A stretch of 64,000 nt of DNA from Kangiella koreensis DSM 16069. GTDB lineage: Bacteria > Pseudomonadota > Gammaproteobacteria > Enterobacterales > Kangiellaceae. The notes under the pieces are model-generated. The model had not been told where the DNA came from, did no database searches, and saw nothing but the letters and a program-made list of their open reading frames with translations. Shown here piece after piece: positions 49,084-63,963 of the stretch; the first letter of the stretch is position 1, and each line of letters starts with the position of its first letter. A program made the translations under genes and the position numbers. Where the stretch lies: contig NC_013166.1 in assembly GCF_000024085.1 (NCBI RefSeq), positions 1 through 64,000 on the forward strand, written 5' to 3'.

Positions 49084-49893
49084 ATGGTTAAAAACCTTAG
49101 AAAAGTGTTGTTTCGTATTGAGCGGGGACTGCCTGTAGATTGGACCAAGGCAAAGAAAAACCTTTTATCCTTGGGTATCAGCCAAAAGAGTATGAGCCAA
49201 GCATTGAGTGTTACGGCATATGGCGGCAATGATTATAGAGTTGAAGTTAAAGACAAAAAAATATTTGACGAAATACTGTTATTGATTGAGCCAGCTAATA
49301 AAAGTACACGAAGTGCCGCAAGCCTTAGCGGCAATACGCACTTAAGTCAGGTTAATGGAGCAATGCTAGCTGTATGGTATGCCAATGAGGCCATTCCTAT
49401 TAACAGAGTTTTCAAAGATGAAGAGTCCTGCCCTTCTCCAGACAGAAAGAATGCGCTTATCATAGAAAATGAAGAGTGCTTTTTGTTTAAGGAAGATACT
49501 TTTAAGTTTGTTAGGGACTTTTGTAATGTTGATATGGATGAGGATGATGTTGAATTTATCTATGGCTCTGGAAACAGCATTACAAATCGTAGAATAATTC
49601 CTTATCTAAAAGCATTTAAAGGAGAAGTATATTGCCTCTTTGACATCGACCTCGGAGGATTAAGAATATACGCCAATCTAATTTCTGCCGGACTCGAAAA
49701 AGAAAAAATACATTATCTAATCCCAGAGGATCTAGAGGAAAGGCTGGTGAAGTCAAGGAGAGAAGCGACAGAAAAGGAGTTGGGGGAGTTAAGCCAAGTG
49801 TATGGAATTACTGAAAAAACAGACAGGATTATCAGCGCTTTACGTTACTATAAAAAAACTATTGAGCAGGAGAGCTACCGTGCAGAAAAATAA
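49084..49893 (+). CDS. jetD: Wadjet JetD, Toprim-domain nuclease subunit
   Basis: JetD is the topoisomerase VI A-like nuclease that cuts circular DNA after loop extrusion by the JetABC condensin. This 269-residue protein is shorter than many JetD proteins. The Toprim motifs are visible: acidic residues in LIIENEECF (Glu128/Glu130), the Gly-x-Gly in YGSGNS (161-163) and Asp-x-Asp in FDIDLGGLRIY (187/189), with a C-terminal QESYRAEK. It is the first gene of the operon, an order of D-C-A-B rather than the usual A-B-C-D. Confidence 0.85.
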   Translation: MVKNLRKVLFRIERGLPVDWTKAKKNLLSLGISQKSMSQALSVTAYGGNDYRVEVKDKKIFDEILLLIEPANKSTRSAASLSGNTHLSQVNGAMLAVWYANEAIPINRVFKDEESCPSPDRKNALIIENEECFLFKEDTFKFVRDFCNVDMDEDDVEFIYGSGNSITNRRIIPYLKAFKGEVYCLFDIDLGGLRIYANLISAGLEKEKIHYLIPEDLEERLVKSRREATEKELGELSQVYGITEKTDRIISALRYYKKTIEQESYRAEK

Positions 49894-52846
49894 TTTTAGT
49901 TTGGAGTTTAATAGAGAATATAAAATAAAAGAGTTAATCTTCGTAAATAGTGGATCCAACTATTATGTGAGATTACCAGTAGACTCACATGCTGCCATTA
50001 TTGCTGATAACAATAGCGGTAAGACCTCAACCTTATCCGCACTTAAATTATTTTTGTTACCTGAAATTAGCTTTAAAAGACAAAGTGAGAAATTCGGATT
50101 TTCATCAGGAAGAAAGTTTTTTGAAGATCTTGACTCGTATTTGTACTATTTTCCCGGAGCAGATTCATACATTATTTGTAATGCATCAAATCCTAAAGGA
50201 GATTTTTGTTGGGTATTGTACAGAACGACAGAACTAAGATATGAAAGAATTGCATTGCCTGTATCTTATGATGAGATAGAGCACTTGTTTTGGGATGGAA
50301 GATCAAAAAATAACGAGAATGCAGGAAAGTTACATAGCGATATAGAAAGCAAAGGAATCAAAAAAACGTTAATAACAACCTATAGCGGGAAACCCTTTAA
50401 TGATAGAAAAGCCATAGGTGAATCTATATACACGAGAACGTCCAATGATAATGATGATTCACGATTCTGCTTACTTCCGATGATAAAAGGCTATAGTTCT
50501 AATAAGACAGAAACTATCCGCGCTCTTTTAAATATGGCTTTTGATCTAAGCAATGCAGCAACAACATCACTGCCTATGGCCATAGCGTCAATTCTAGATG
50601 GACAATCAATGAGTGCAGTGAAAAGGAATAACAGCGAGGGAATTCTGTTGGATCTTGAGGCCCAATTAGATGAATGGCGTGAACTGAAACAACTAAATTC
50701 AAAATTAAATGTTGTTAAGGACAATAGCAATCTGTGGATATCATTGGAAAAGAGTAGAGAGAGTTTTAAAGAAACGAAACGCGAGTTTATAGAGAAATTT
50801 AAAAATATTAATTACTTAGTCGAATCAGAGAAAAACAAGAATCAGAAAGAGGTGCAAGAAGTAGCAAAAAGAGTTGAGGAAGCAGACAAGCATCATCAAT
50901 CAGTGGAAGAAAACTATAAGATGGTTAAAGTGAGTTATGACAATGCAAAAATAAATGCTAAATCGGAAAAGAAAAGCCTGGAGAGAAATAAAAGTATTAT
51001 AGAGAAAGTTGAAGAAACAAGGCGTCATCTTAAGCCTTTAAATCCAAATGATGGTAGTGATGAGTCAATATTGTTAGCTTTAAACGAACAGATAGCATTA
51101 TGCCAGGAAGATATTGAAAGTTTAAAAGATAAGAATAAAGCAATAAGACGAATGGAAGAGCTGAATAAAAGAGTTATAACCAATAAGCATAGAGTTAAAT
51201 GTTTGACTGAAACAATAGAGCATACTGAGAATAAATCATCATTATTCGATGAATTAGAAGCAGGCGCAGGTAGTAAACTGCTTAGTTTAAATAAAGACTT
51301 TGGTAAAGTTTCTGTCAAATTAAGCCAAGAACAAAAGAAAATCACGGAGTCATTTTGTGAGCTGATAACCCTGTCAAAGCAAAGGGTGTACTTTTGTGAT
51401 TCTGAACTGATAACCACAGAGTTTATAGAAACAAATAGCGATGACTACATAAAGCAATATAAAGATGAAATAGAAGAGCTCAATAGTTGGATACATAAAG
51501 ATAGCCTAGAAATCAAGAAAAACAAAGAATATAGTTTACTAACAAAAGAGGCTCAGGCTAAAAAGCTACAGGAATGTGAAGATGAACTAGAGGAGTTAAA
51601 ACAGAATAGAAATGACTTGAAAGCGTTTGATTCAATAATGGCCAGTATCAAAATAGGAGTGGCTAACTTACAAATAGCCGAGGAAAAATATAAAGAGGAG
51701 AATGATAAGTTTGAAAAAGTGAAGCGTCACAGGGTAGAAACACGAATTGCTATGGAAAAAGAACATTCTCGTTCTTCAGAGATTAAAAAATATCAGGCAG
51801 ATATTCAGAATTATGTCCAGAAGTTACACGCGATAGAGCTCTCAACTGGGCATTTATGTAAATTGGAGCAAGTATTAGATGAACATGAAGAGTCATGCGA
51901 GAAAGAAAGAGCTGCTATGCTCATCGAGAGTAAAATAGAAGAGCTTGAGGAATTGAAGGGGAAGTTGATAAATGAGCACGAAGAGACAATAAACAAAACT
52001 AGGGAGCTCTTGGATAAAGGGATCGTTGAATCAGAGGTTGATGATAGGTATCGACTAAAAGAGAGTGATGGAAGTTTAGATAATTATTATTACAGTCTGG
52101 AGTCAGTGTTTAGAAACATAGACAAATCTTTGGAAAGCTTTAAGCAAAGATTAGAGCATCATAACAATCAAAATGCCACGGTGACAAAAATTATTGAAAA
52201 TGTTGAAAGTTGGATTAAGGCATTCTTTAAACAGTTAAATGATGAAATGAAAAAATATAAAATCTCTAATTTAAGTTCGGTTGAATTAATTGCGGAGCTT
52301 CACCCTCAATACACCGAAGTAATTAAAACGCTGAACTCAACAGGCAATAGAACAGATATATTAAACACACAGGATTTTTATACACAAATAGCTGATTTTC
52401 AGAATAATTTCTATATCAAAAGGGCTGGAAAGATTGATATTGCGAGAATTATTGAAAAGGTAAGCTACCGATTTACGCGAAATGGTACTGTTGAAGTTAT
52501 ACCACAATCGAATGGTACAAATTGCATGGTTAATGCAGTGTTATTAGCACTATTGTTGAGTGACATGGTGCCAGAAGATATAGGATTAAACATGCCGGTT
52601 GTTTTTGATGAGGTCGGCAGCCTTGATGAGAAGAACTTTAAAGAGATATTAAAAGTAATGGAGGAACATGGATTGTTTTTGTTTGCCGCAAACCCAGAGC
52701 AAAATGGGATAATAGCAAGTGTTCTGAGCGTATATCATCCAATTTCAACATTCAGAGTCGTAGATGATGAAATCATTGGAAAGGCTGAAATTATTTACTA
52801 TCCAGGAATGGAAGAGCGTTTAGAAGAAATCGGTCATAGTGCATAG
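49880..52846 (+). CDS. jetC: Wadjet JetC, SMC/MukB-like ATPase
   Basis: This is a 988-residue SMC-type ATPase. Walker A is IIADNNSGKTST (residues 41-51). A very long coiled-coil region (about 260-830, Lys/Glu-rich) is broken by a hinge-like stretch. Walker B is MPVVFDEVGSLDE, near residue 910. I start at GTG 49880, which has AGGAG 7 nt upstream and overlaps the jetD end by 14 nt; the longer frame from 49802 lies inside jetD and is unlikely. JetC extrudes DNA loops with JetA and JetB. Confidence 0.88.
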   Translation: MQKNNFSLEFNREYKIKELIFVNSGSNYYVRLPVDSHAAIIADNNSGKTSTLSALKLFLLPEISFKRQSEKFGFSSGRKFFEDLDSYLYYFPGADSYIICNASNPKGDFCWVLYRTTELRYERIALPVSYDEIEHLFWDGRSKNNENAGKLHSDIESKGIKKTLITTYSGKPFNDRKAIGESIYTRTSNDNDDSRFCLLPMIKGYSSNKTETIRALLNMAFDLSNAATTSLPMAIASILDGQSMSAVKRNNSEGILLDLEAQLDEWRELKQLNSKLNVVKDNSNLWISLEKSRESFKETKREFIEKFKNINYLVESEKNKNQKEVQEVAKRVEEADKHHQSVEENYKMVKVSYDNAKINAKSEKKSLERNKSIIEKVEETRRHLKPLNPNDGSDESILLALNEQIALCQEDIESLKDKNKAIRRMEELNKRVITNKHRVKCLTETIEHTENKSSLFDELEAGAGSKLLSLNKDFGKVSVKLSQEQKKITESFCELITLSKQRVYFCDSELITTEFIETNSDDYIKQYKDEIEELNSWIHKDSLEIKKNKEYSLLTKEAQAKKLQECEDELEELKQNRNDLKAFDSIMASIKIGVANLQIAEEKYKEENDKFEKVKRHRVETRIAMEKEHSRSSEIKKYQADIQNYVQKLHAIELSTGHLCKLEQVLDEHEESCEKERAAMLIESKIEELEELKGKLINEHEETINKTRELLDKGIVESEVDDRYRLKESDGSLDNYYYSLESVFRNIDKSLESFKQRLEHHNNQNATVTKIIENVESWIKAFFKQLNDEMKKYKISNLSSVELIAELHPQYTEVIKTLNSTGNRTDILNTQDFYTQIADFQNNFYIKRAGKIDIARIIEKVSYRFTRNGTVEVIPQSNGTNCMVNAVLLALLLSDMVPEDIGLNMPVVFDEVGSLDEKNFKEILKVMEEHGLFLFAANPEQNGIIASVLSVYHPISTFRVVDDEIIGKAEIIYYPGMEERLEEIGHSA

Positions 52847-52877
52847 CATGAATTCTAGGGCGAAATAAGAGTGGGAT

Positions 52878-54284
52878 ATGGATACTAATGCACAGAATAC
52901 CCTTGTCACGGTTTTTCAACATGTGGATATATTTTGCACTATGTTGGACCATTATTCTGATCAGACCAAAACAGTAGTGGGATTTGAAACTGCCGCGTAT
53001 GAATCAGTGGTTAGCCAATATGTTATTAAGAGGATAGAAAGAAAGACTGATCAGAAAAGAATAAAGGCAGCCTTAAGTATTGCCAACATGCAAGAGTGTG
53101 GACTGTTAAGCTTCATTAATCATAAGCGTGGTCAGTTTGGCTTGAATAGAGGGCTTCTACAAACCATACAAAACCTAGACTCCAGAAGAATAAGAGAGCT
53201 AGGAAAGCCTGATTTGGATATCATATATGTTCAAATGAAGAAGCTTTATGATTACTTCATACCTCTAGGTGGAGCATATGAACGAGGAAATGACACGTTT
53301 AATGAAAATCTGGCTTCACTTATGGATACCCTTCAAGAAGTCCTTTCAAAAATAGATCACAATGCCAAAGCATTAGATGGAAGTTCTAAGCGGCTATCCG
53401 AAATATTGGATAGTCATAACTTTAACAAGATGGTAATGACTGATCAGGTTAGTAGTGCATTGGATGAGATTATTCGAATATCCCAAAGAACCATTAAGCC
53501 GACTTTGATATTTCTCAATGAAAAAGGAATGGTACAAGATAAAAGTGCTATGTATTTAATACGCAGGATAAGGGAAAGTTTTGAGAGAACAAGCTTCTAT
53601 AATGAATATGGAAATATTTACACTATCGAAATGAAACTTTTATCGTATGCTGAGGTAATAGGAGAAATACGAAGGAAATTAAGTAGATATGTTGAGATGG
53701 ATAGACTTCAACGTCAGATATACAATAGCATAGAAAGTAGATTTAACAGGCTATATACGGAAGTGGTAACTAGGCTAGACACAAAATTAAAAGGGAAAAG
53801 TATTCCATTCGAGCACACTATATTTTCAGAGGCAAAGAAGTTTAAGGGGTTAGTAAATTGGAATTCATCAAAAATAACAGGTGCATTAATTGAATTGCCT
53901 GAGAGCTCTCGAACGAAACACCTAGAGGAATATATACGAGCTAAAATGCAGCATGCAAGTGCTCTTAATGCAAAGAAGAGAAAGCCTGGAGAGAATGGGA
54001 AGACTGCTAGAGAACGACATGAAAACTATCAGAGGGTGAATCGAATAAAGAAAATTATGGAAAGGTTTGAGCCAATGAAAGATGTTAACGACTTGTATTT
54101 TGCAATTCATGAACATTTAAAAGAAGGTCTTAAAGGTTATGATTTGCGGGACATATATGATGCAGTACCCTTCGTGGATGAGACGATAAAGAGAACACAG
54201 ACGTTCAAAAGGGGCACGATAGAGTATAAATCTAAAAGACTTAGCTATTTAGTTAAGTCGTTGGAGTTTGAAAAAAATGAATGA
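52878..54284 (+). CDS. jetA: Wadjet JetA, MukF-like kleisin subunit
   Basis: This is a 468-residue, mostly helical protein in the kleisin position of the Wadjet operon. An N-terminal winged-helix-like segment (about 15-100) is followed by long helices and a basic region (about 350-400, KKRKPGENGKTARERHENYQ). The assignment rests on size, predicted helicity and order between jetC and jetB. I see no single diagnostic motif. Confidence 0.72.
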   Translation: MDTNAQNTLVTVFQHVDIFCTMLDHYSDQTKTVVGFETAAYESVVSQYVIKRIERKTDQKRIKAALSIANMQECGLLSFINHKRGQFGLNRGLLQTIQNLDSRRIRELGKPDLDIIYVQMKKLYDYFIPLGGAYERGNDTFNENLASLMDTLQEVLSKIDHNAKALDGSSKRLSEILDSHNFNKMVMTDQVSSALDEIIRISQRTIKPTLIFLNEKGMVQDKSAMYLIRRIRESFERTSFYNEYGNIYTIEMKLLSYAEVIGEIRRKLSRYVEMDRLQRQIYNSIESRFNRLYTEVVTRLDTKLKGKSIPFEHTIFSEAKKFKGLVNWNSSKITGALIELPESSRTKHLEEYIRAKMQHASALNAKKRKPGENGKTARERHENYQRVNRIKKIMERFEPMKDVNDLYFAIHEHLKEGLKGYDLRDIYDAVPFVDETIKRTQTFKRGTIEYKSKRLSYLVKSLEFEKNE

Positions 54285-54858
54285 CTTTGATTTAGGACTA
54301 GATGTTTTTGACTCAAGAGCTATCTATAAGGACTTCATGGCCGGGAAGATTATTAATAAATATGAGATTATTGAAGGCGAACTACAGCGATCACCAAAAT
54401 TTGGTGCTTTAATAGGTAGTCTAGATATATACCGCTATCTATATTCATTAATAGGGTTTGAAATTAAGCAGATTAATGACGAAGCTTATTTCATTACGCG
54501 TATTGATAGAGCGGATGAGTACAATGAGGTTGCTGCTAATATCCAGGTGCTTTTGACTGTTATTTGCAGAGGTGTGTATTCCTTGGGCTTACCGCCAGGT
54601 ATCTTATTAGATCAAGATGCTGGGTTAACGTCAAAGCAGATAGATGAGATTGGGTTAATAGATGAGCAAAAGCGAATATTAAAAGCATGTGGTTTAAAGA
54701 CACCCCTATCAGAAACGGTTAATGGAAAATTGGTAGATCGTGGGGTATTTCTTAAAACACAAGCTGAGCGTTACATCCTGTCCTCAGCTGGAAAGTATCT
54801 GTATGAAGAAATAATAAGTGACACAGAAACGAGAGCATTAGAAAGGATAACAGAATAA
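54277..54858 (+). CDS. jetB: Wadjet JetB, MukE-like subunit
   Basis: This is a 193-residue protein with winged-helix-like segments, in the MukE-like position. The ATG at 54277, overlapping the jetA stop by 8 nt with GGAG 10 nt upstream, is preferred over a TTG at 54268. The block AANIQVLLTVICRGVYSLG looks like a core helix of DUF4194/MukE-type proteins. JetB binds the JetA kleisin. Confidence 0.7.
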   Translation: MNDFDLGLDVFDSRAIYKDFMAGKIINKYEIIEGELQRSPKFGALIGSLDIYRYLYSLIGFEIKQINDEAYFITRIDRADEYNEVAANIQVLLTVICRGVYSLGLPPGILLDQDAGLTSKQIDEIGLIDEQKRILKACGLKTPLSETVNGKLVDRGVFLKTQAERYILSSAGKYLYEEIISDTETRALERITE

Positions 54859-57701: not shown

Positions 57702-58520
57702 CTATACAGAGTCTGGCCGTAGAATTGTTAAGCAACCATAATCTCCTAAAGGAATAGCTTGTTCGAGTAGAATGGTATTGCGGGCAGACCAATTAGCAAC
57801 CCGCTTGAACCATGCCGAGCGAGTTGTTCCGCGCGAAAGATATCCACATTCAGGAACAACCCCACCTCTTAATAATTCTTCTGTGGCTGAACCAGGAATG
57901 AGCTCATCGGCATTCTTAATACTTTTAGCAGGGAGTTCAAACCACCAATTATAATCCATTTTTTGCCAGCGGACATGGGTTGGCCCCCATAGAACTAATG
58001 CACTATTACCAGGCAGAGATGATTGGCAGCGTAGTGCTGCACAAGTAATTGAGGTTTCAAAGTGTCTAGCGGCATCGATAATTTCCTTGGCACCCCAGTC
58101 CTGATTACGATAGCGTTTTTGCAATGCTTTTGTCGGTACTAAAAAATGTGCAGCAAAAATGTCGGCTTCACGTTCCATCGGATTTCTTGAAGAAAAGCCA
58201 GTAATGTCTTTGTGGAATCCATCACCGAGCATTATTGCATTTCGATGTTCGCTAATACTGAAATGCCCAAACTCGTGGGCGCCCGTAAATCGACAGCGAC
58301 CGATGGTTCTAGGAACGCCGGCGCTTCCTGTATTGATAAAGACCTGAAATTCCTCATCATGAAAGCGCAACAACCCTTCGAAAGCATCGTTAAAGTTAGC
58401 TTGTGCCACTGGAACCTCATAATCATTAAAAGCAATGAAGGGGTCTCCCCCACCAGATTTTCCTTTATGTTGTTCGGCTAGCCCTTCTGCAAACTCTATA
58501 ATATGCTCTGGGTTAATCAT
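57702..58520 (-). CDS. ImmA/IrrE family metallopeptidase
   Basis: This is a 272-residue protein with the zinc-peptidase motif HEFGHF and the downstream Glu in EREADIFAAHFLVP, both family hallmarks. ImmA/IrrE proteins cleave partner repressors (often XRE proteins) in response to DNA damage or stress. It has no fused helix-turn-helix, so a substrate is likely nearby; the two upstream cotranscribed genes are candidates. It is the last gene of a tightly overlapping three-gene operon. Confidence 0.88.
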   Translation of the reverse strand: MINPEHIIEFAEGLAEQHKGKSGGGDPFIAFNDYEVPVAQANFNDAFEGLLRFHDEEFQVFINTGSAGVPRTIGRCRFTGAHEFGHFSISEHRNAIMLGDGFHKDITGFSSRNPMEREADIFAAHFLVPTKALQKRYRNQDWGAKEIIDAARHFETSITCAALRCQSSLPGNSALVLWGPTHVRWQKMDYNWWFELPAKSIKNADELIPGSATEELLRGGVVPECGYLSRGTTRSAWFKRVANWSARNTILLEQAIPLGDYGCLTILRPDSV

Positions 58521-58881
58521 TCTTCTGTCTGTCCTTGGCTAGCTGTATAGCTTCTTCCATTAGCTGTTCCGTTTCCTTAGTTATTTCATTTCCATTACGA
58601 GCAGCCATTCTATAGCGCGTTTCGGTTACAGGGTACGCTTTTGGATAAATGGTAGCTGAGTTAGAACTTTTTATCTCTTGCGCTAATTGCAGAATGTCAT
58701 TTAAGCTAGGACGAAAATTGTTCGCTTGAACAATATCATCTGCAAACTTGTGTTCAAAAGCAGCGACCTCATCTGGTGTTTCAGGTGCTTGTAAACCATT
58801 AAGAACAGCGACCTCGTGTAGCAAGAGACTGTATTCAATATCTGAAATTGATATGAATTTACGTTTGGGAATTTTATTCAT
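58513..58881 (-). CDS. hypothetical protein of ImmA/IrrE operon
   Basis: I do not recognise this 122-residue protein. It is acidic and mainly helical, with no membrane helix. It overlaps the upstream gene by 4 nt (ATGA) and the ImmA/IrrE gene by 8 nt, so all three are translationally coupled. It could be the ImmA/IrrE substrate or an adaptor. Confidence 0.6.
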   Translation of the reverse strand: MNKIPKRKFISISDIEYSLLLHEVAVLNGLQAPETPDEVAAFEHKFADDIVQANNFRPSLNDILQLAQEIKSSNSATIYPKAYPVTETRYRMAARNGNEITKETEQLMEEAIQLAKDRQKND

Positions 58882-59591
58882 GCTTTGACCTCCTGTTCAA
58901 ACCTTTCAAGAACCTTCTTAAGCAGCCTATTTCTACAGGTTCGAATTGCTCCGGGTTTATAACCGTGCTTTGTTGCAATCGAAGCTGCCTCACCTTGTTT
59001 GCCACGTGCATTAGGGTTTTCTATACTTTTCAAATCTTCGGATTCGAGTAAGGCTTCTTTCATTGCTGGCTGGAGCTTATTCAATTCTTCTTCGAGGATT
59101 CTTAGCTTTAAAGCCTTTTCGGTTACAGAACGTGAGACAGGTGTATTAGAAGGAACCTCAGTTATTAGGACTTCCTCAGGAGAAGGAGAGGTTGATTGGT
59201 AAGTCTCTTCTATTGTATCAGGGGCTATACTAATTTCGGTTTGTGTGAGCTGATATTTAGGATTTGACCATTCTCTTTCGCTGCACTTTAAGGCCCAGGC
59301 TATAAAGGCTTTGCGAATACCTGATGATGTATCTTCAGGAATAGTAAATTTTGAGATCTCTTTAAATATCTTATCGATACCTATGGCAGTTAAAGCTCCA
59401 TCATGTGCTTGAGCAAGATGGTGGTTTTCTAACCACTGCTGAGCGCGAACTGTCATTAGTCCGTAGATGGCAACATAAAGAATACCATGGCTCTCTGTTA
59501 ATCCGTCTACTGGGGCCGTTTGAATCTCTAGAATGAGTTCCTCCCAATCAACTTCCGCTTCTCTATTTCGTTTTATAGCTTGTTGCGTCAT
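58878..59591 (-). CDS. probable DNA-binding protein of ImmA/IrrE operon
   Basis: This is a 237-residue protein. Its C-terminal part (about 175-237, ALLESEDLKSIEN...KQGEAASIATKHGYKPGAIRTCRNRLLKKVLERF) has a sigma-region-4-like helix-turn-helix pattern. The first 120 residues are unrecognised. It is divergent from the ubiquitin-like operon with a 9-bp inverted repeat between them, so it may regulate both sides. GGAAGAGG lies before its ATG. Confidence 0.6.
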   Translation of the reverse strand: MTQQAIKRNREAEVDWEELILEIQTAPVDGLTESHGILYVAIYGLMTVRAQQWLENHHLAQAHDGALTAIGIDKIFKEISKFTIPEDTSSGIRKAFIAWALKCSEREWSNPKYQLTQTEISIAPDTIEETYQSTSPSPEEVLITEVPSNTPVSRSVTEKALKLRILEEELNKLQPAMKEALLESEDLKSIENPNARGKQGEAASIATKHGYKPGAIRTCRNRLLKKVLERFEQEVKA

Positions 59592-59620
59592 TAATTTTAC
59601 CTCTTCCTTGTAAAGCCAAA

Positions 59621-59646
59621 AGCGTTACAAATCCAAGTGTAACGCT
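59621..59646. promoter_or_regulatory. 9-bp inverted repeat between ImmA and Ubl operons
   Basis: AGCGTTACA (59621-59629) and TGTAACGCT (59638-59646) are perfectly complementary with an 8-nt spacer. It lies in the 114-bp divergent region. Additional TGTAA half-sites follow near 59662 and 59684. It is a likely operator for a dimeric regulator. Confidence 0.6.
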
Positions 59647-59705
59647 ATCAGCTTTAATAAGTGTAAACAAAATTTCGCATATTTGTAATTATAGAGGACC
59701 AAACA

Positions 59706-60359
59706 ATGAGCAACGATAACCATGACAACAACGGGTCTCAATGGAGATTTCGTGTTGATAAAAACAACTTTACTGTAGATTCACCGAGTATCACCGGTCG
59801 AGAAATACTGATAATGGCGGGAAAAACTCCCGTAGAACAATATCTACTTATTCTTAGTGGACATGGCCAACCAAAGGAAATATCACTTGATGAAAAGATT
59901 GACCTCTCCCAACCGGGGATAGAACGCTTCAGAACACTGGAACGAGAGTGTCGTGAAGGATTTCAAGGGAGAAAGGACTTTCAGCTTCCGTCTGAAGATA
60001 CCGAGTTCCTAGAGGCGTCAGGACTACAATGGGAGACCACTACTGAAGGTCGAGTAATGAGGGTGGTTATATATAACTACCCTGTGCCTGATGGCTACAA
60101 TGTAAGTGAAGTGGATATGTATTTGAGGATAGACACTTCGTATCCGGATACACAGATAGACATGTTTTACGTCTATCCTGCCCTTTCATTAGTGTCAGGA
60201 CACACTATAAAGGCACTTGCGACGGAATCATTCGACGGGAGAATATGGCAAAGATGGTCAAGACACCGTGCCAATCAGAACGTTTGGCGGCCAGGCGTAG
60301 ATTGTATTGAAACTCATCTAGCCCTTGTAAACCAATGTTTAACAAGAGAGGTCAAATGA
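59706..60359 (+). CDS. ubiquitin-like domain fused to E2-like conjugating domain
   Basis: This is a 217-residue fusion. Residues about 11-78 resemble the prokaryotic multiubiquitin beta-grasp domain (WRFRVDKNNFTVD, ITGREILIMAGK, DLSQPGIERFR), here in a single copy. Residues about 85-217 match the prokaryotic E2-like family (EGFQGRKDFQLPSED, PVPDGYNVSEVD, YPDTQIDMFYVYPAL, WQRWSRH, VWRPGVDCIETHL). Cys200 in GVDC is a possible catalytic cysteine, but I cannot confirm this. It is the first gene of a ubiquitin-like operon, overlapped by no other gene. Confidence 0.82.
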   Translation: MSNDNHDNNGSQWRFRVDKNNFTVDSPSITGREILIMAGKTPVEQYLLILSGHGQPKEISLDEKIDLSQPGIERFRTLERECREGFQGRKDFQLPSEDTEFLEASGLQWETTTEGRVMRVVIYNYPVPDGYNVSEVDMYLRIDTSYPDTQIDMFYVYPALSLVSGHTIKALATESFDGRIWQRWSRHRANQNVWRPGVDCIETHLALVNQCLTREVK

Positions 60360-60360
60360 G

Positions 60361-61764
60361 ATGGATAGGGAGTATACGATAACCTTTAGATATGAAGAAT
60401 TTAACCAGTTAAAACAACATCTTTTCCCTGGTGATAAAAAGGAAGCTGTAGCATTTGCTCTTTGTTCGATTGCCCAGGGAGTTGATAAGACACGGTTATT
60501 AGTTCGTGAAATCATTTCCTTGCCCAAATCCGCCTATATAAAGCGAACCCCGCAGGAAGTGTTATGGGAAACCAGTACATTGATACCAGTTCTAGGGAGG
60601 TTGGAAAAAGAGAATATTTGTCTTATCAAGTGCCATTCACACCCAGACGGGATTGCTGAATTTTCAGCAGTAGATGATAAAAGTGATAAAAGCTTGTTAC
60701 CAAGTTTCTATGAATGGAATCCAGTGGGGCCTCACGCAAGCTTGGTGATGTGTGAGGATAATGTGAGTGCTCGTATCGTATTAGATGATGGCAGTTTTAA
60801 GCCGGTCAATTGTATACAAATCATTGGAGAGAGGCTCAGTTGGTACCGGAACGGTGTTACTAAAAAGGTAGAACCGGAGCAGCAACGTTTAGTTCAAGCG
60901 TTTGGTGAAGGTACATATAGCGCTTTAAGTAATCTTCGTGTTGCTGTAATAGGTGCATCGGGAATCGGAAGCCTTGTAAATGAATCCTTGATGAGAACTG
61001 GAGTTGGTGAAATTGTTACTGTTGACCCAGATCACGTTGATTTTGTAAATCTTAACCGAATACTTTACTCGACGAAGAAAGATGCTCAGAACAAGGTTAA
61101 CAAAACGAGTTTGTTAAGAATGAGCGTAGCAACTACGGGCTTAGATACAAAAATCACCGAACTACCTTACGACTTAAAAACACCAGATGTCATTAAGCAT
61201 ATAGCTGGTTGTGATTTGATCATGGGCTGTGTTGATAATAGAGAAGCACGCCAAATACTTTGCAGGATAGCTGCATTTTATTTACTTCCATACATAGATG
61301 CTGGTGTGGCTATTAGAGCAGAATCAAAGGGAGAGATTGAATCAATATCGGCAGCTATCCACTATATACAGCCCGGACAATCCTTTTTATCAAGAAGAAT
61401 ATTTGATATTGAGGCACTACGCTCAGATGCCATGCAGCGTGCGAATCCAGATCACTTCAAAGAACAGTTAAATTTAGGTTATGTGTCGGGGGTGGATGTT
61501 GAGCGACCGGCAGTAATGCCCCTAAACATGATCGCAGCAGGCTATTCTGTAATGGAGCTTTTGGCGAGAATACATGGATATCGCGGGGATATTGAGGACG
61601 AAAAGTGCGCAGCGGAGACGTTAATCTCAGTTGATATAGGTTACATTAAACAAAGACCTGATACAGCTCTTTGCACCAGTCTAGCGCGTTATATAGGCTT
61701 GGGAGATGTAGTGCCTTTATTGGGGATGCCCGTACTTAGCATGCAAGAAGAGGATGCAGCGTGA
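60361..61764 (+). CDS. JAB deubiquitinase-like domain fused to E1-like (ThiF) domain
   Basis: This is a 467-residue fusion. The N-terminal JAB/JAMM metalloprotease has Glu28 and the metal motif His92-x-His94-x7-Ser102-x2-Asp105 (CHSHPDGIAEFSAVD). The C-terminal E1 adenylation domain has GASGIGS (198-204), VDPDHVDFVNLNR (221-233) and GCVDNREARQ (289-298). The later loop QPGQSFLSRR (337-346) has no CxxC pair, where many ThiF proteins have cysteines. It starts 1 nt after the Ubl-E2 gene and overlaps the DUF6527 gene by 4 nt. Confidence 0.85.
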   Translation: MDREYTITFRYEEFNQLKQHLFPGDKKEAVAFALCSIAQGVDKTRLLVREIISLPKSAYIKRTPQEVLWETSTLIPVLGRLEKENICLIKCHSHPDGIAEFSAVDDKSDKSLLPSFYEWNPVGPHASLVMCEDNVSARIVLDDGSFKPVNCIQIIGERLSWYRNGVTKKVEPEQQRLVQAFGEGTYSALSNLRVAVIGASGIGSLVNESLMRTGVGEIVTVDPDHVDFVNLNRILYSTKKDAQNKVNKTSLLRMSVATTGLDTKITELPYDLKTPDVIKHIAGCDLIMGCVDNREARQILCRIAAFYLLPYIDAGVAIRAESKGEIESISAAIHYIQPGQSFLSRRIFDIEALRSDAMQRANPDHFKEQLNLGYVSGVDVERPAVMPLNMIAAGYSVMELLARIHGYRGDIEDEKCAAETLISVDIGYIKQRPDTALCTSLARYIGLGDVVPLLGMPVLSMQEEDAA

Positions 61765-62084
61765 AGATCTTGAGAAAGTTGTACTCGTATTATTATCGTT
61801 GGAGATATAAGAAGTATACAGCTGTTAGATGTGAAGAGCTGCCAGAGAAATTACGGAATGGAAAATGTTACTATCTAATGGATGCTGGATTTGCATGGGG
61901 TCTTTCATTCAAATGTCCTTGTGGCTGCGGTGAGTTGGTAAATTTGAACCTTGTGGGATCTCGACCAGTATGGAATGCTTCAATTTTAGATGGTGAATTA
62001 AATATTACGCCCTCAATTTGGCGTAATGCTGGATGCAAGAGCCACTTCTGGATTGTAGGAGGTGAAATCAAATGGGTTATATAA
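61761..62084 (+). CDS. DUF6527 family protein of ubiquitin-like operon
   Basis: This is a 107-residue protein starting at GTG 61761 (AAGAGG upstream), overlapping the E1 stop. It has the family pattern SFKCPCGCGELVNLNL and, near the end, ITPSIWRNAGCKSHFWIVGGEIKW; the clustered Cys/His suggest a metal site or peptidase. DUF6527 proteins accompany multiubiquitin/E1/E2 operons, and a role in processing the Ubl has been proposed in recent work. I recall this without a citation. Confidence 0.8.
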   Translation: MKILRKLYSYYYRWRYKKYTAVRCEELPEKLRNGKCYYLMDAGFAWGLSFKCPCGCGELVNLNLVGSRPVWNASILDGELNITPSIWRNAGCKSHFWIVGGEIKWVI

Positions 62085-62150
62085 ATAATTTGAAAATTAC
62101 ATAAGACTATTGTTGGCTATCAGAGCCGGACACATAATGAGATCGCTATA

Positions 62151-63278
62151 ATGATAGATATAAGTGAAATCAGAGCGCAGATAAAATTGCTCAATCCAGA
62201 AATAAACTTTGATGGTGCTTACACTTTCTACTATGACGAAACGAATAATATAAGAAAGTTCCGCATCAAAGAAACGGGGTTTAATTCAGCATTTACAAAT
62301 AACTTTGTGTTAGGTGGCTTGGTTTTTGAAGGAGTTTCACCTGACGTACAACCACTCAAGGATAGTTTGAGATTACAGAGTACTGCCAAAGAAGTGAAAT
62401 TTAACCATATCGCACGGGGGAGCTTCATTGATTGCTTGAAATCACAAAATCTGAACCTCTTTCTGAAGTATCTAGTCAGTAATAATTTATATATCCACTA
62501 CTCAAGTATAAACATTCTCTATTGGTCACTTGTGGACATTGTTGACTCAGCCATTGTAAATTCAGAGATAAGCCAAAAAATAAGCGCACAGTTTATTAAT
62601 GTATTGAAGAATGATTTGTATAAATTGGCCAGGCTAGAAATAAACTCTATGGTTTCATTGTTCCGAAAGTACGAATATCCGAATATAAAGCAAAATAGAG
62701 TGTTATCATTTATAGAAGAAATGAGCGAATTGTTCTTTCCATATATTAATGAACCGGAGTTTCACATTGGGTTAGAGTCGCTTAGACAAATATTGCAAGA
62801 ATGCAGAAGGAAAGGGTCTTTGCCATTTGTCATGGGGGAAGAGGACTTTATCCTAATAAATGATTTCTCACAGTTCTATATGCGCCCTATCTACACGTTT
62901 ATAAACTCTACACATATTTTTGATAAAGAAAACTCGATAGAGGAACTGTTAGAAAAGCAGATAATTATGGATGGCCCAAGACAAATTAATAATTACTCAT
63001 TTGCTGATTCTAAATCAGAGCAATTAATACAGTTATCAGATGTTGTAGTTGGTATTCTGGGGAAATTAGGTTCCTACTGTAATACTAATGATAAAGAGAA
63101 AATATATTCGGATATGCACTCATTAAACTCATTGCAAGAAGAAAATATCGATTTACTCTTGAATCTAATTGCTGAGTCGCGTGATAGAAATATGGGATTC
63201 TTGCATGCAATAGACTGTTATGAGGAAATGTCAAAAATGGATATAATTATAGAATGTAGACAAGGGATATGCGCATAA
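62151..63278 (+). CDS. DUF3800 family protein (RNase H-like)
   Basis: This is a 375-residue protein matching the DUF3800 layout: the N-terminal FYYDETNNIRKFRI and the C-terminal ADSKSEQLIQLSDVVVGILGKL carry the acidic residues of an RNase H-like site. DUF3800 proteins occur in many mobile defence islands. It lies 66 nt after DUF6527 on the same strand with a weak ribosome site, so it may belong to the operon or be a separate gene. Confidence 0.7.
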   Translation: MIDISEIRAQIKLLNPEINFDGAYTFYYDETNNIRKFRIKETGFNSAFTNNFVLGGLVFEGVSPDVQPLKDSLRLQSTAKEVKFNHIARGSFIDCLKSQNLNLFLKYLVSNNLYIHYSSINILYWSLVDIVDSAIVNSEISQKISAQFINVLKNDLYKLARLEINSMVSLFRKYEYPNIKQNRVLSFIEEMSELFFPYINEPEFHIGLESLRQILQECRRKGSLPFVMGEEDFILINDFSQFYMRPIYTFINSTHIFDKENSIEELLEKQIIMDGPRQINNYSFADSKSEQLIQLSDVVVGILGKLGSYCNTNDKEKIYSDMHSLNSLQEENIDLLLNLIAESRDRNMGFLHAIDCYEEMSKMDIIIECRQGICA

Positions 63279-63324
63279 TAATTAGCTACTATCTGAGGGT
63301 TATTCTTGAGAAGGTTACCGACTA

Positions 63325-63963
63325 ATGACAATGATTGTTGCGCTACAACTTGATGCTTACGTATTAATTGCTGCTGATAGACGTGAGACATATCAAGTAA
63401 ATGGTGAGGTTGCATACGTTATTAGTGACGACAGACAAAAACTTATACAATGGTCAGGTGGCATAGTTACCGGAAGTGGCTATGTCCCACTTCTTAGTGA
63501 ATTTAAGTCGAAAATAGCTGACGCAAAAATTACTTTTGTCGATGAGATAATAGAAATAGCACAAGAGTGCTGTAATAACCTTTCAGGTGATCAGTCTGAG
63601 TGGAAAAAAACGACGAATTGGCTTTTTACTTATGGTGCTGATAGTCCAGAAGGTGAGGTAAGCAGGGTTGCGTTTATCAAATCACAAGAGCCCGAAGGGA
63701 TTCATGTTTTAGAAGTGGGGGAATCATTGATTTGGGCTAAAATACCTGACTATAAGGAGGAGTTATCCAATCTCAAGGCAAAAATCAGACCAGAAAAAGA
63801 CTTATCGAATATTAACTGTAGTTTATCCTACCATACAGAAATTCTGAAAGAGCTTTACGCTTATGTTGCAAAGGTGAATCCCAGTGTGTCTGAGGCATTT
63901 GATTGCTATCTTCATTCTGTTGAGGTAAGAGGAATGGTACCAGTGGAGTATTGGAAAACTTAA
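63325..63963 (+). CDS. proteasome-like Ntn hydrolase
   Basis: This is a 212-residue protein whose start resembles a proteasome beta subunit/HslV. MTMIVALQLDAYVLIAADRRET gives, after removal of Met1, an N-terminal threonine nucleophile with Asp at position 17, as in proteasomes. A later Lys (Lys38 after Met removal, DDRQKLIQW) and the GSG loop in IVTGSGYVPLL fit the fold. It follows the ubiquitin-like operon and DUF3800 on the same strand. The match is by pattern only; the substrate and assembly are unknown. No ATPase partner is visible in the window. Confidence 0.65.
   Translation: MTMIVALQLDAYVLIAADRRETYQVNGEVAYVISDDRQKLIQWSGGIVTGSGYVPLLSEFKSKIADAKITFVDEIIEIAQECCNNLSGDQSEWKKTTNWLFTYGADSPEGEVSRVAFIKSQEPEGIHVLEVGESLIWAKIPDYKEELSNLKAKIRPEKDLSNINCSLSYHTEILKELYAYVAKVNPSVSEAFDCYLHSVEVRGMVPVEYWKT

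Follow-up and report, generated by a model that had tools for sequence, protein, structure and literature searches.

Known Bub (bacterial ubiquitination-like) operons, of which the Citrobacter proteins BubA, BubB and BubCD have solved structures (PDB 9ea4, 9ea8, 9eav), encode a ubiquitin-like protein (Ubl), an E2 of family E, a JAB-E1 fusion and a DUF6527 protein, and they have divergent regulator genes, including one for an IrrE protease. According to the accessible text of PMC13373217, CapW or CapH+CapP accompanies 219 of 544 Bub operons and CapK+CapS accompanies 59 of 544, the regulation by CapH+CapP being described there; phage protection by Bub operons is given in that text as not demonstrated. 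The proteasome-like family comprises 20S beta, HslV, Anbu, BPH, connectase and 22 newer groups such as GPH; in the accessible parts of the 2021 survey (Fuchs et al. 2021, PMC8665760), membership implies neither ring assembly nor peptidase activity, and no genomic contexts hinting at a specific function of proteasome homologs are reported. Both kinds of system meet in the first 64,000 nucleotides of the Kangiella koreensis DSM 16069 contig NC_013166.1 (hereafter the window), where a Bub operon (59706-62084) is followed by a DUF3800 gene (62151-63278) and by a gene encoding a proteasome-fold hydrolase (63325-63963). A preliminary description of this DNA had proposed that, if the genes are cotranscribed, tagging and degradation could be linked there on one mobile element. 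We consider it likely that the locus is a chromosomal defence island with independent modules side by side, in which a Bub module inducible by damage adjoins a Thr hydrolase that acts independently of it. The components are of known kinds throughout (Bub operon, proteasome-like hydrolase); a regulatory cassette upstream of Bub and a lead in rhizobia are the parts worth following.

The Bub operon and the hydrolase of the window

As judged from the encoded proteins, segment 59706-62084 is a complete Bub operon. The first gene (59706..60359, + strand) encodes a 217-residue Ubl-E2 fusion (BubA-BubB). Its Ubl part is of the multi-ubiquitin type (Multi_ubiq, PF14452, 2.7e-15), has a PDB match to Citrobacter BubA and stops at Gly85; the E2 part comes after it and belongs to family E (Prok-E2_E, PF14462, 3.3e-38; PDB match to Citrobacter BubB, 7.6e-28). 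The second gene (60361..61764, + strand) encodes a 467-residue JAB-E1 fusion (BubCD) with Prok-JAB (1.5e-5) and ThiF (2e-30) domains; residues 12-459 match Citrobacter BubCD in PDB (1.1e-59), and the JAB motif HSHP...SAVDD is retained in that alignment. The third (61761..62084, + strand) encodes a BubE-type DUF6527 protein (PF20137, 2.9e-20), which we take to be a protease; a sequence search of PDB with this protein gave chance matches only or none. The order of genes is identical to that of known Bub operons. Pfam domains and the solved Citrobacter proteins agree with the preliminary description in that the three genes form a bacterial Ubl operon, and all five genes from Bub to the hydrolase were found where it had placed them, all on the + strand.

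Whereas Ubl and E2 are separate chains in Citrobacter, they form a single protein in the window and likewise in all of the best 120 of 305 Ubl-E2 relatives. Within these 120, Gly85, where Ubl joins E2, and the motif WSRH (184-187) in E2 are invariant (120/120 each); the motif provides an invariant Ser and there is no invariant Cys, which suggests that conjugation probably proceeds via oxyesters. DUF6527/BubE reportedly trims Ubl to its C-terminal Gly, with transfer via oxyesters, and the conserved residues are consistent with this chemistry. Since Ubl is fused to E2, trimming would be obligatory. The Ubl-E2 query found no relatives in the scan of genome contigs or in the viral scan, and PF14461, a different E2 family, had no match in the own genome and none in the controls. 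A search of an E. coli collection was without a near match.

The product of the gene at 63325-63963 (+ strand, 212 residues) is, by structure prediction, of the proteasome-beta-type N-terminal nucleophile (Ntn) fold with its catalytic residues. The model shows the alpha-beta-beta-alpha arrangement with a predicted local distance difference test (pLDDT) score of 86, and Foldseek matched it to Anbu and 20S beta at 5e-8. A profile search gave 328 hits. Of the best 120, counting the protein itself, 116 have a residue at position 2, which is Thr in 115 of them and Ser in the other; Asp18 and Lys39 are conserved in 120/120 and 119/120, respectively. The Met-Thr start, Asp17 and Lys from which an Ntn hydrolase of proteasome beta type had been proposed are therefore borne out by both fold and conservation. 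An in-frame stop lies 5 codons ahead of the ATG, leaving no room for a propeptide. The protein thus shares with the proteasome-like family, as presented in the accessible parts of PMC8665760, the fold, an N-terminal Thr after Met, the equivalents of Asp17 and Lys33 and the lack of a propeptide. It differs from known members in that it has no Pfam family over the cut-off (the best match being connectase MJ0548_N, E 0.023) and no PHROG family. Identity with HslV or Anbu was rejected, there being no Pfam proteasome match and no ncbifam match. We regard the product as a solitary Thr1 hydrolase of the proteasome-like family, probably active.

The hydrolase family has 12 close members, itself included, and the closest relatives are P0002 (81%) and P0003 (73%). 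Many of the named relatives are from Acinetobacter and others from Vibrio, Photobacterium, Chromohalobacter, Stutzerimonas, Microbulbifer and Alteromonas; profile hit P0142 is a protein of Kangiella sp. TOML190. This host range would fit GPH, by its name the gammaproteobacterial group. A sequence search of PDB with the hydrolase gave chance matches only or none, and the scan of genome contigs contained no relatives of it.

Genomic contexts of Bub operons and hydrolase relatives

For comparison we used a further 24 Bub loci totalling 376 kb, of which 13 are on plasmids and 11 come from sampled genomes (12-20 kb each). The plasmid loci are a non-random choice: nine were drawn from plasmid records matching Ubl-E2 (100 in all, 30 of them listed) and four were reached via phrog_5990, another proteasome-fold family described below. 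The first tblastn round covered 19 loci, L134-L138 joining in the final round, and the set leaves out G734, G802, G906 and G934, with Prok-E2_E matches under the Pfam cut-off. In these loci tblastn found JAB-E1 in 24/24, Ubl-E2 in 22/24, DUF6527 in 21/24 and the hydrolase family in 0/24. Conversely, the Prok-E2_E profile, which picks up the window's own E2 and gave no match in a control genome in any search, matched none of the nine records or genomes carrying hydrolase relatives, and the three Bub proteins, used as tblastn queries, had no match in the stretches read around those relatives. Two partial Acinetobacter plasmid matches, H39 and H41, are left out of this context set. As to sampled genomes, the hydrolase was present (own genome included) in 2/61 genomes of relatives, 2/394 of the order and 1/369 of the class; Prok-E2_E was present in 2/394 of the order, 8/369 of the class and 9/398 of the phylum (2, 7 and 6 of these exceeding the cut-off), the phylum sample being a search for Prok-E2_E only. 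In the order and class samples, both searched for both genes, the two occurred together in the window's genome alone. As far as could be searched, the Bub trio does not recur with the hydrolase, the outcome that the preliminary description had itself named beforehand as refuting its proposal, and a coupling of the two is not supported. Since the hydrolase relatives are without tagging genes where this could be checked, Bub and the hydrolase are most likely mere neighbours.

The surroundings of the locus provide a sufficient explanation for this proximity, namely the clustering of genes in defence islands. A Gabija system lies just beyond the window (L001 7555-11365, contig 67555-71365; GajA 3.3e-198, GajB 1.1e-167) and a gene for a TIR-type effector further downstream (L001 15839-16702, 5.5e-42). 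The whole locus sits on a single contig of 2,852,073 bases, and the analysis did not establish that its genes share one mobile element. Three modules may thus be proposed: the Bub operon with its divergent regulatory cassette (57702-62084), the DUF3800 gene, and the hydrolase, which would have a job of its own (as a peptidase, or in processing or ligating a specific substrate) rather than being the degradation arm of Bub.

Several observations weigh against this reading. The gaps are short, with 66 bp between Bub and DUF3800 (62085-62150) and 46 bp between DUF3800 and the hydrolase (63279-63324), the genes are co-directional and in neither gap did our scan detect a + strand terminator-like site, so that read-through is possible. 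Nine records with hydrolase relatives are a small number, and the two that are viral contigs may be fragmentary; the two closest relatives, P0002 and P0003, lie on contigs with an unreadable context. On the side of the Bub module, tblastn with the IrrE-type protease of the upstream cassette found a relative at only 3/24 Bub loci, and the assignments of the two other cassette products as CapH-like and sigma-like are weak, being based on weak or sub-cut-off sequence matches. The common strand, the short gaps and the lack of a + strand terminator-like site, together with a proteasome-beta fold with catalytic residues, would also fit a unit of co-transcribed genes in which Bub tags and the hydrolase degrades or processes. 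We hold such a unit to be highly improbable given the failure of the two partners to recur together on either side (0/9 and 0/24), the DUF3800 gene between them, whose relatives are also missing from the 24 Bub loci, and the ORF (open reading frame) list, in which no unfoldase gene was noticed beside the hydrolase by eye, no dedicated search being made. An argument for one transcript from promoters and terminators alone was rejected, promoter-like sites being at the level of shuffled sequence (18 found versus 17.2 expected). No report of a Bub-proteasome link was met in the literature searched, largely at abstract level. A real link would be a bacterial parallel to ubiquitin-proteasome coupling; it fails for the window's gene.

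The DUF3800 gene (62151..63278, + strand; Pfam 2.3e-6) is a candidate defence gene (PADLOC PDC-S51, 4.6e-137) and not part of the Bub operon: tblastn found no relatives of it at the 24 other Bub loci. Its candidate status, the common strand and the 46-bp gap may point to a two-gene defence unit with the hydrolase, independent of Bub, and in Ruegeria a phrog_5990 gene is followed, after ~1 kb, by a DUF3800 gene. On the other hand, no DUF3800 is annotated around the hydrolase relatives in L002, L003, L015, L016, L018 and L019 (from annotation, no search being made), and the GC content of the two genes differs (0.340 versus 0.388). Such a pairing appears quite improbable, and we retain the DUF3800 gene and the hydrolase as separate modules.

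The hydrolase relatives have varied contexts. In another Kangiella genome (L006), the relative lies alone between two genes of housekeeping type, named by eye as glutathione-transferase-like and peroxiredoxin-like; others are on a prophage contig (L004), a Vibrio plasmid, Acinetobacter plasmids, phage-labelled records and a viral contig (L017). At five of six Acinetobacter loci, the divergent neighbour begins with the last ~33 residues of DUF2345, the end of VgrG, below the Pfam cut-off (L003 3900-4607, L016 4112-4474, L017 1447-1863, L018 5709-5909, L019 3212-3613); L015, inside a phage, is the exception. Polymorphic-toxin-type genes come next after the DUF2345-end gene in L018 and L019. Toxin cassettes of the DUF2345 (VgrG-end) type in Acinetobacter are thus a possible, testable context for an orphan proteasome homolog of the window's family.

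The divergent cassette and a proposed working of the Bub module

Upstream of Bub, three genes are read on the - strand. The third gene of this cassette (57702..58520, 272 residues) encodes an IrrE/ImmA-type metalloprotease (Peptidase_M78, 3.5e-11) identified as CapP-like by PADLOC (capP, 3.8e-34). The second (58513..58881) encodes a 122-residue protein, presumably a regulator or the protease substrate, whose residues 50-119 align weakly to positions 39-102 of the PADLOC capH profile, its C-terminal part only (E 7.8e-4); no Pfam family, and none of helix-turn-helix (HTH) type, was found for it above the cut-off. The first (58878..59591) encodes a 237-residue sigma-factor-like protein, a presumed DNA-binding regulator, with an NCBIfam match to PRK12527 far below the cut-off (E 0.034). 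It had no sequence relative in plasmids; for the gene in the equivalent slot of the Mesorhizobium locus L010, relatives are annotated as sigma-70 family in 7/22 plasmid records. Between the two divergent operons, a palindrome scan found an imperfect palindrome (59611..59656), a candidate operator with arms of 19 nt, 84% complementary, and an 8-nt gap; its core turned up in the terminator scan too.

CapH and CapP are said to act as a regulatory system. The window resembles CapH+CapP systems in that a CapP-like IrrE protease is encoded divergently from the immune operon; it differs in that the C-terminal half of CapH alone is matched, weakly, and in that an extra sigma-like gene is present. In place of an evident HTH CapH, the sigma-like and the small gene stand beside IrrE here. 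Of 12 annotated plasmid loci, 5 (L011, L013, L014, L135, L136) have a divergent gene next to Bub that is annotated as IrrE, mostly accompanied by an HTH gene; at the 11 sampled-genome loci, upstream genes were judged by eye only. Combined with the 219/544 operons counted in the accessible text of PMC13373217, this indicates that the protease which recurs alongside Bub is IrrE, encoded upstream, and not the hydrolase encoded downstream.

From these components we infer the following working of the Bub module. DNA damage would activate the IrrE/CapP-like protease, which would then cleave or release the regulator encoded beside it, and transcription from the palindrome-bearing intergenic region would increase. 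The Ubl-E2 precursor would be cut after Gly85 by DUF6527; E1 would adenylate Gly85 and hand Ubl to E2, probably via oxyesters; Ubl would be joined to targets, from which the JAB domain may take it off again.

Pairs of a sigma-like and a small-protein gene were also seen in two Bradyrhizobium plasmids (L139 4968-5815, L140 4818-5812), with no adjoining protease gene. Both adjoin a divergent gene of the rRNA adenine methyltransferase type, with one small gene between in L140.

phrog_5990 beside rhizobial Bub operons, and neighbouring genes

A proteasome-fold gene distinct from the window's hydrolase, that of family phrog_5990, lies within 1.5 kb of Bub at 5/24 loci, in two rhizobial lineages. 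Its fold carries two long insertions, one following the first pair of helices and one separating the final pair. PMI-4, as presented in the accessible parts of Fuchs et al. 2021 (PMC8665760), shares the fold, the insertion sites and the occurrence on viral contigs, and phrog_5990 is probably PMI-4, an equation drawn from architecture and not from a sequence comparison. When the profile of the window's hydrolase family was compared with that of phrog_5990, no significant similarity resulted (E 0.084; probability 0.7 out of 100), and the two are therefore treated as different families of one fold. At viral phrog_5990 loci the ORF was identified by motif in 74/80, at least two of these (L123, L131) being other genes, and 28 were used further.

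In Mesorhizobium L010 (plasmid NZ_AP023255.1, 3321-5827), the divergent cassette adjoining Bub contains a sigma-like gene, a small gene and the phrog_5990 gene, which by gene order and by eye occupies the slot held by IrrE in the window. Some Bub operons might thus recruit a PMI-4-like protease, in Mesorhizobium as a cassette protease replacing IrrE/CapP. We judge this unlikely. Four of the five loci were reached via the search for phrog_5990 itself and belong to one Rhizobium lineage (E1 identity 78-99.6%), for which reason a count of the five plasmids as five events was rejected, and the gene is broken in L031. Among Bub loci chosen otherwise, the gene is present at 1/20 (L010) and at 0/11 of those from sampled genomes, and Bub is present at 0/80 viral loci with phrog_5990. 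The family is encoded in 112 viral stretches and is therefore common prophage cargo. The window, L010 and L011 each have a sigma-like gene, and tblastn gave no match between these three.

The general idea of a Bub-proteasome link fails for the window's gene and is favoured, weakly, by phrog_5990 beside Bub in these two lineages. That Bub is sometimes wired to phrog_5990/PMI-4-like proteases, in the Mesorhizobium cassette slot and in an unrelated Rhizobium Bub lineage also bearing a ClpP-like gene, we hold to be slightly less likely again. If true, a proteasome homolog would serve a bacterial ubiquitin-like system as a switch or processing arm; the rhizobial loci provide a testable context for orphan proteasome homologs.

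In each of the four Rhizobium Bub loci of this lineage, the gene after DUF6527 is annotated as a ClpP-type protease (L030 10867-11751, L031 12655-13203, L032 12602-13210, L134 10863-11423); for the product from L030, the match is to the SDH/ClpP-like serine protease family. A gene pair for an S8 peptidase and an ATPase adjoins two Rhizobium Bub operons (L013 8371-11717, L136 8381-11727).

Elsewhere in the window, a three-gene unit at 49802-54858 includes the gene for an SMC-like protein of 1014 residues. By eye, it resembles Wadjet/Mks; in PADLOC its first gene had only a weak match, to mad8, and the remaining two had none. A gene for a YegP-like protein with DUF1508 repeats lies about 1.2 kb beyond the hydrolase (L001 5125-5466, contig 65125-65466); in the accessible text of PMC13373217, YegP homologs are noted behind capK+capS in 57 cases.

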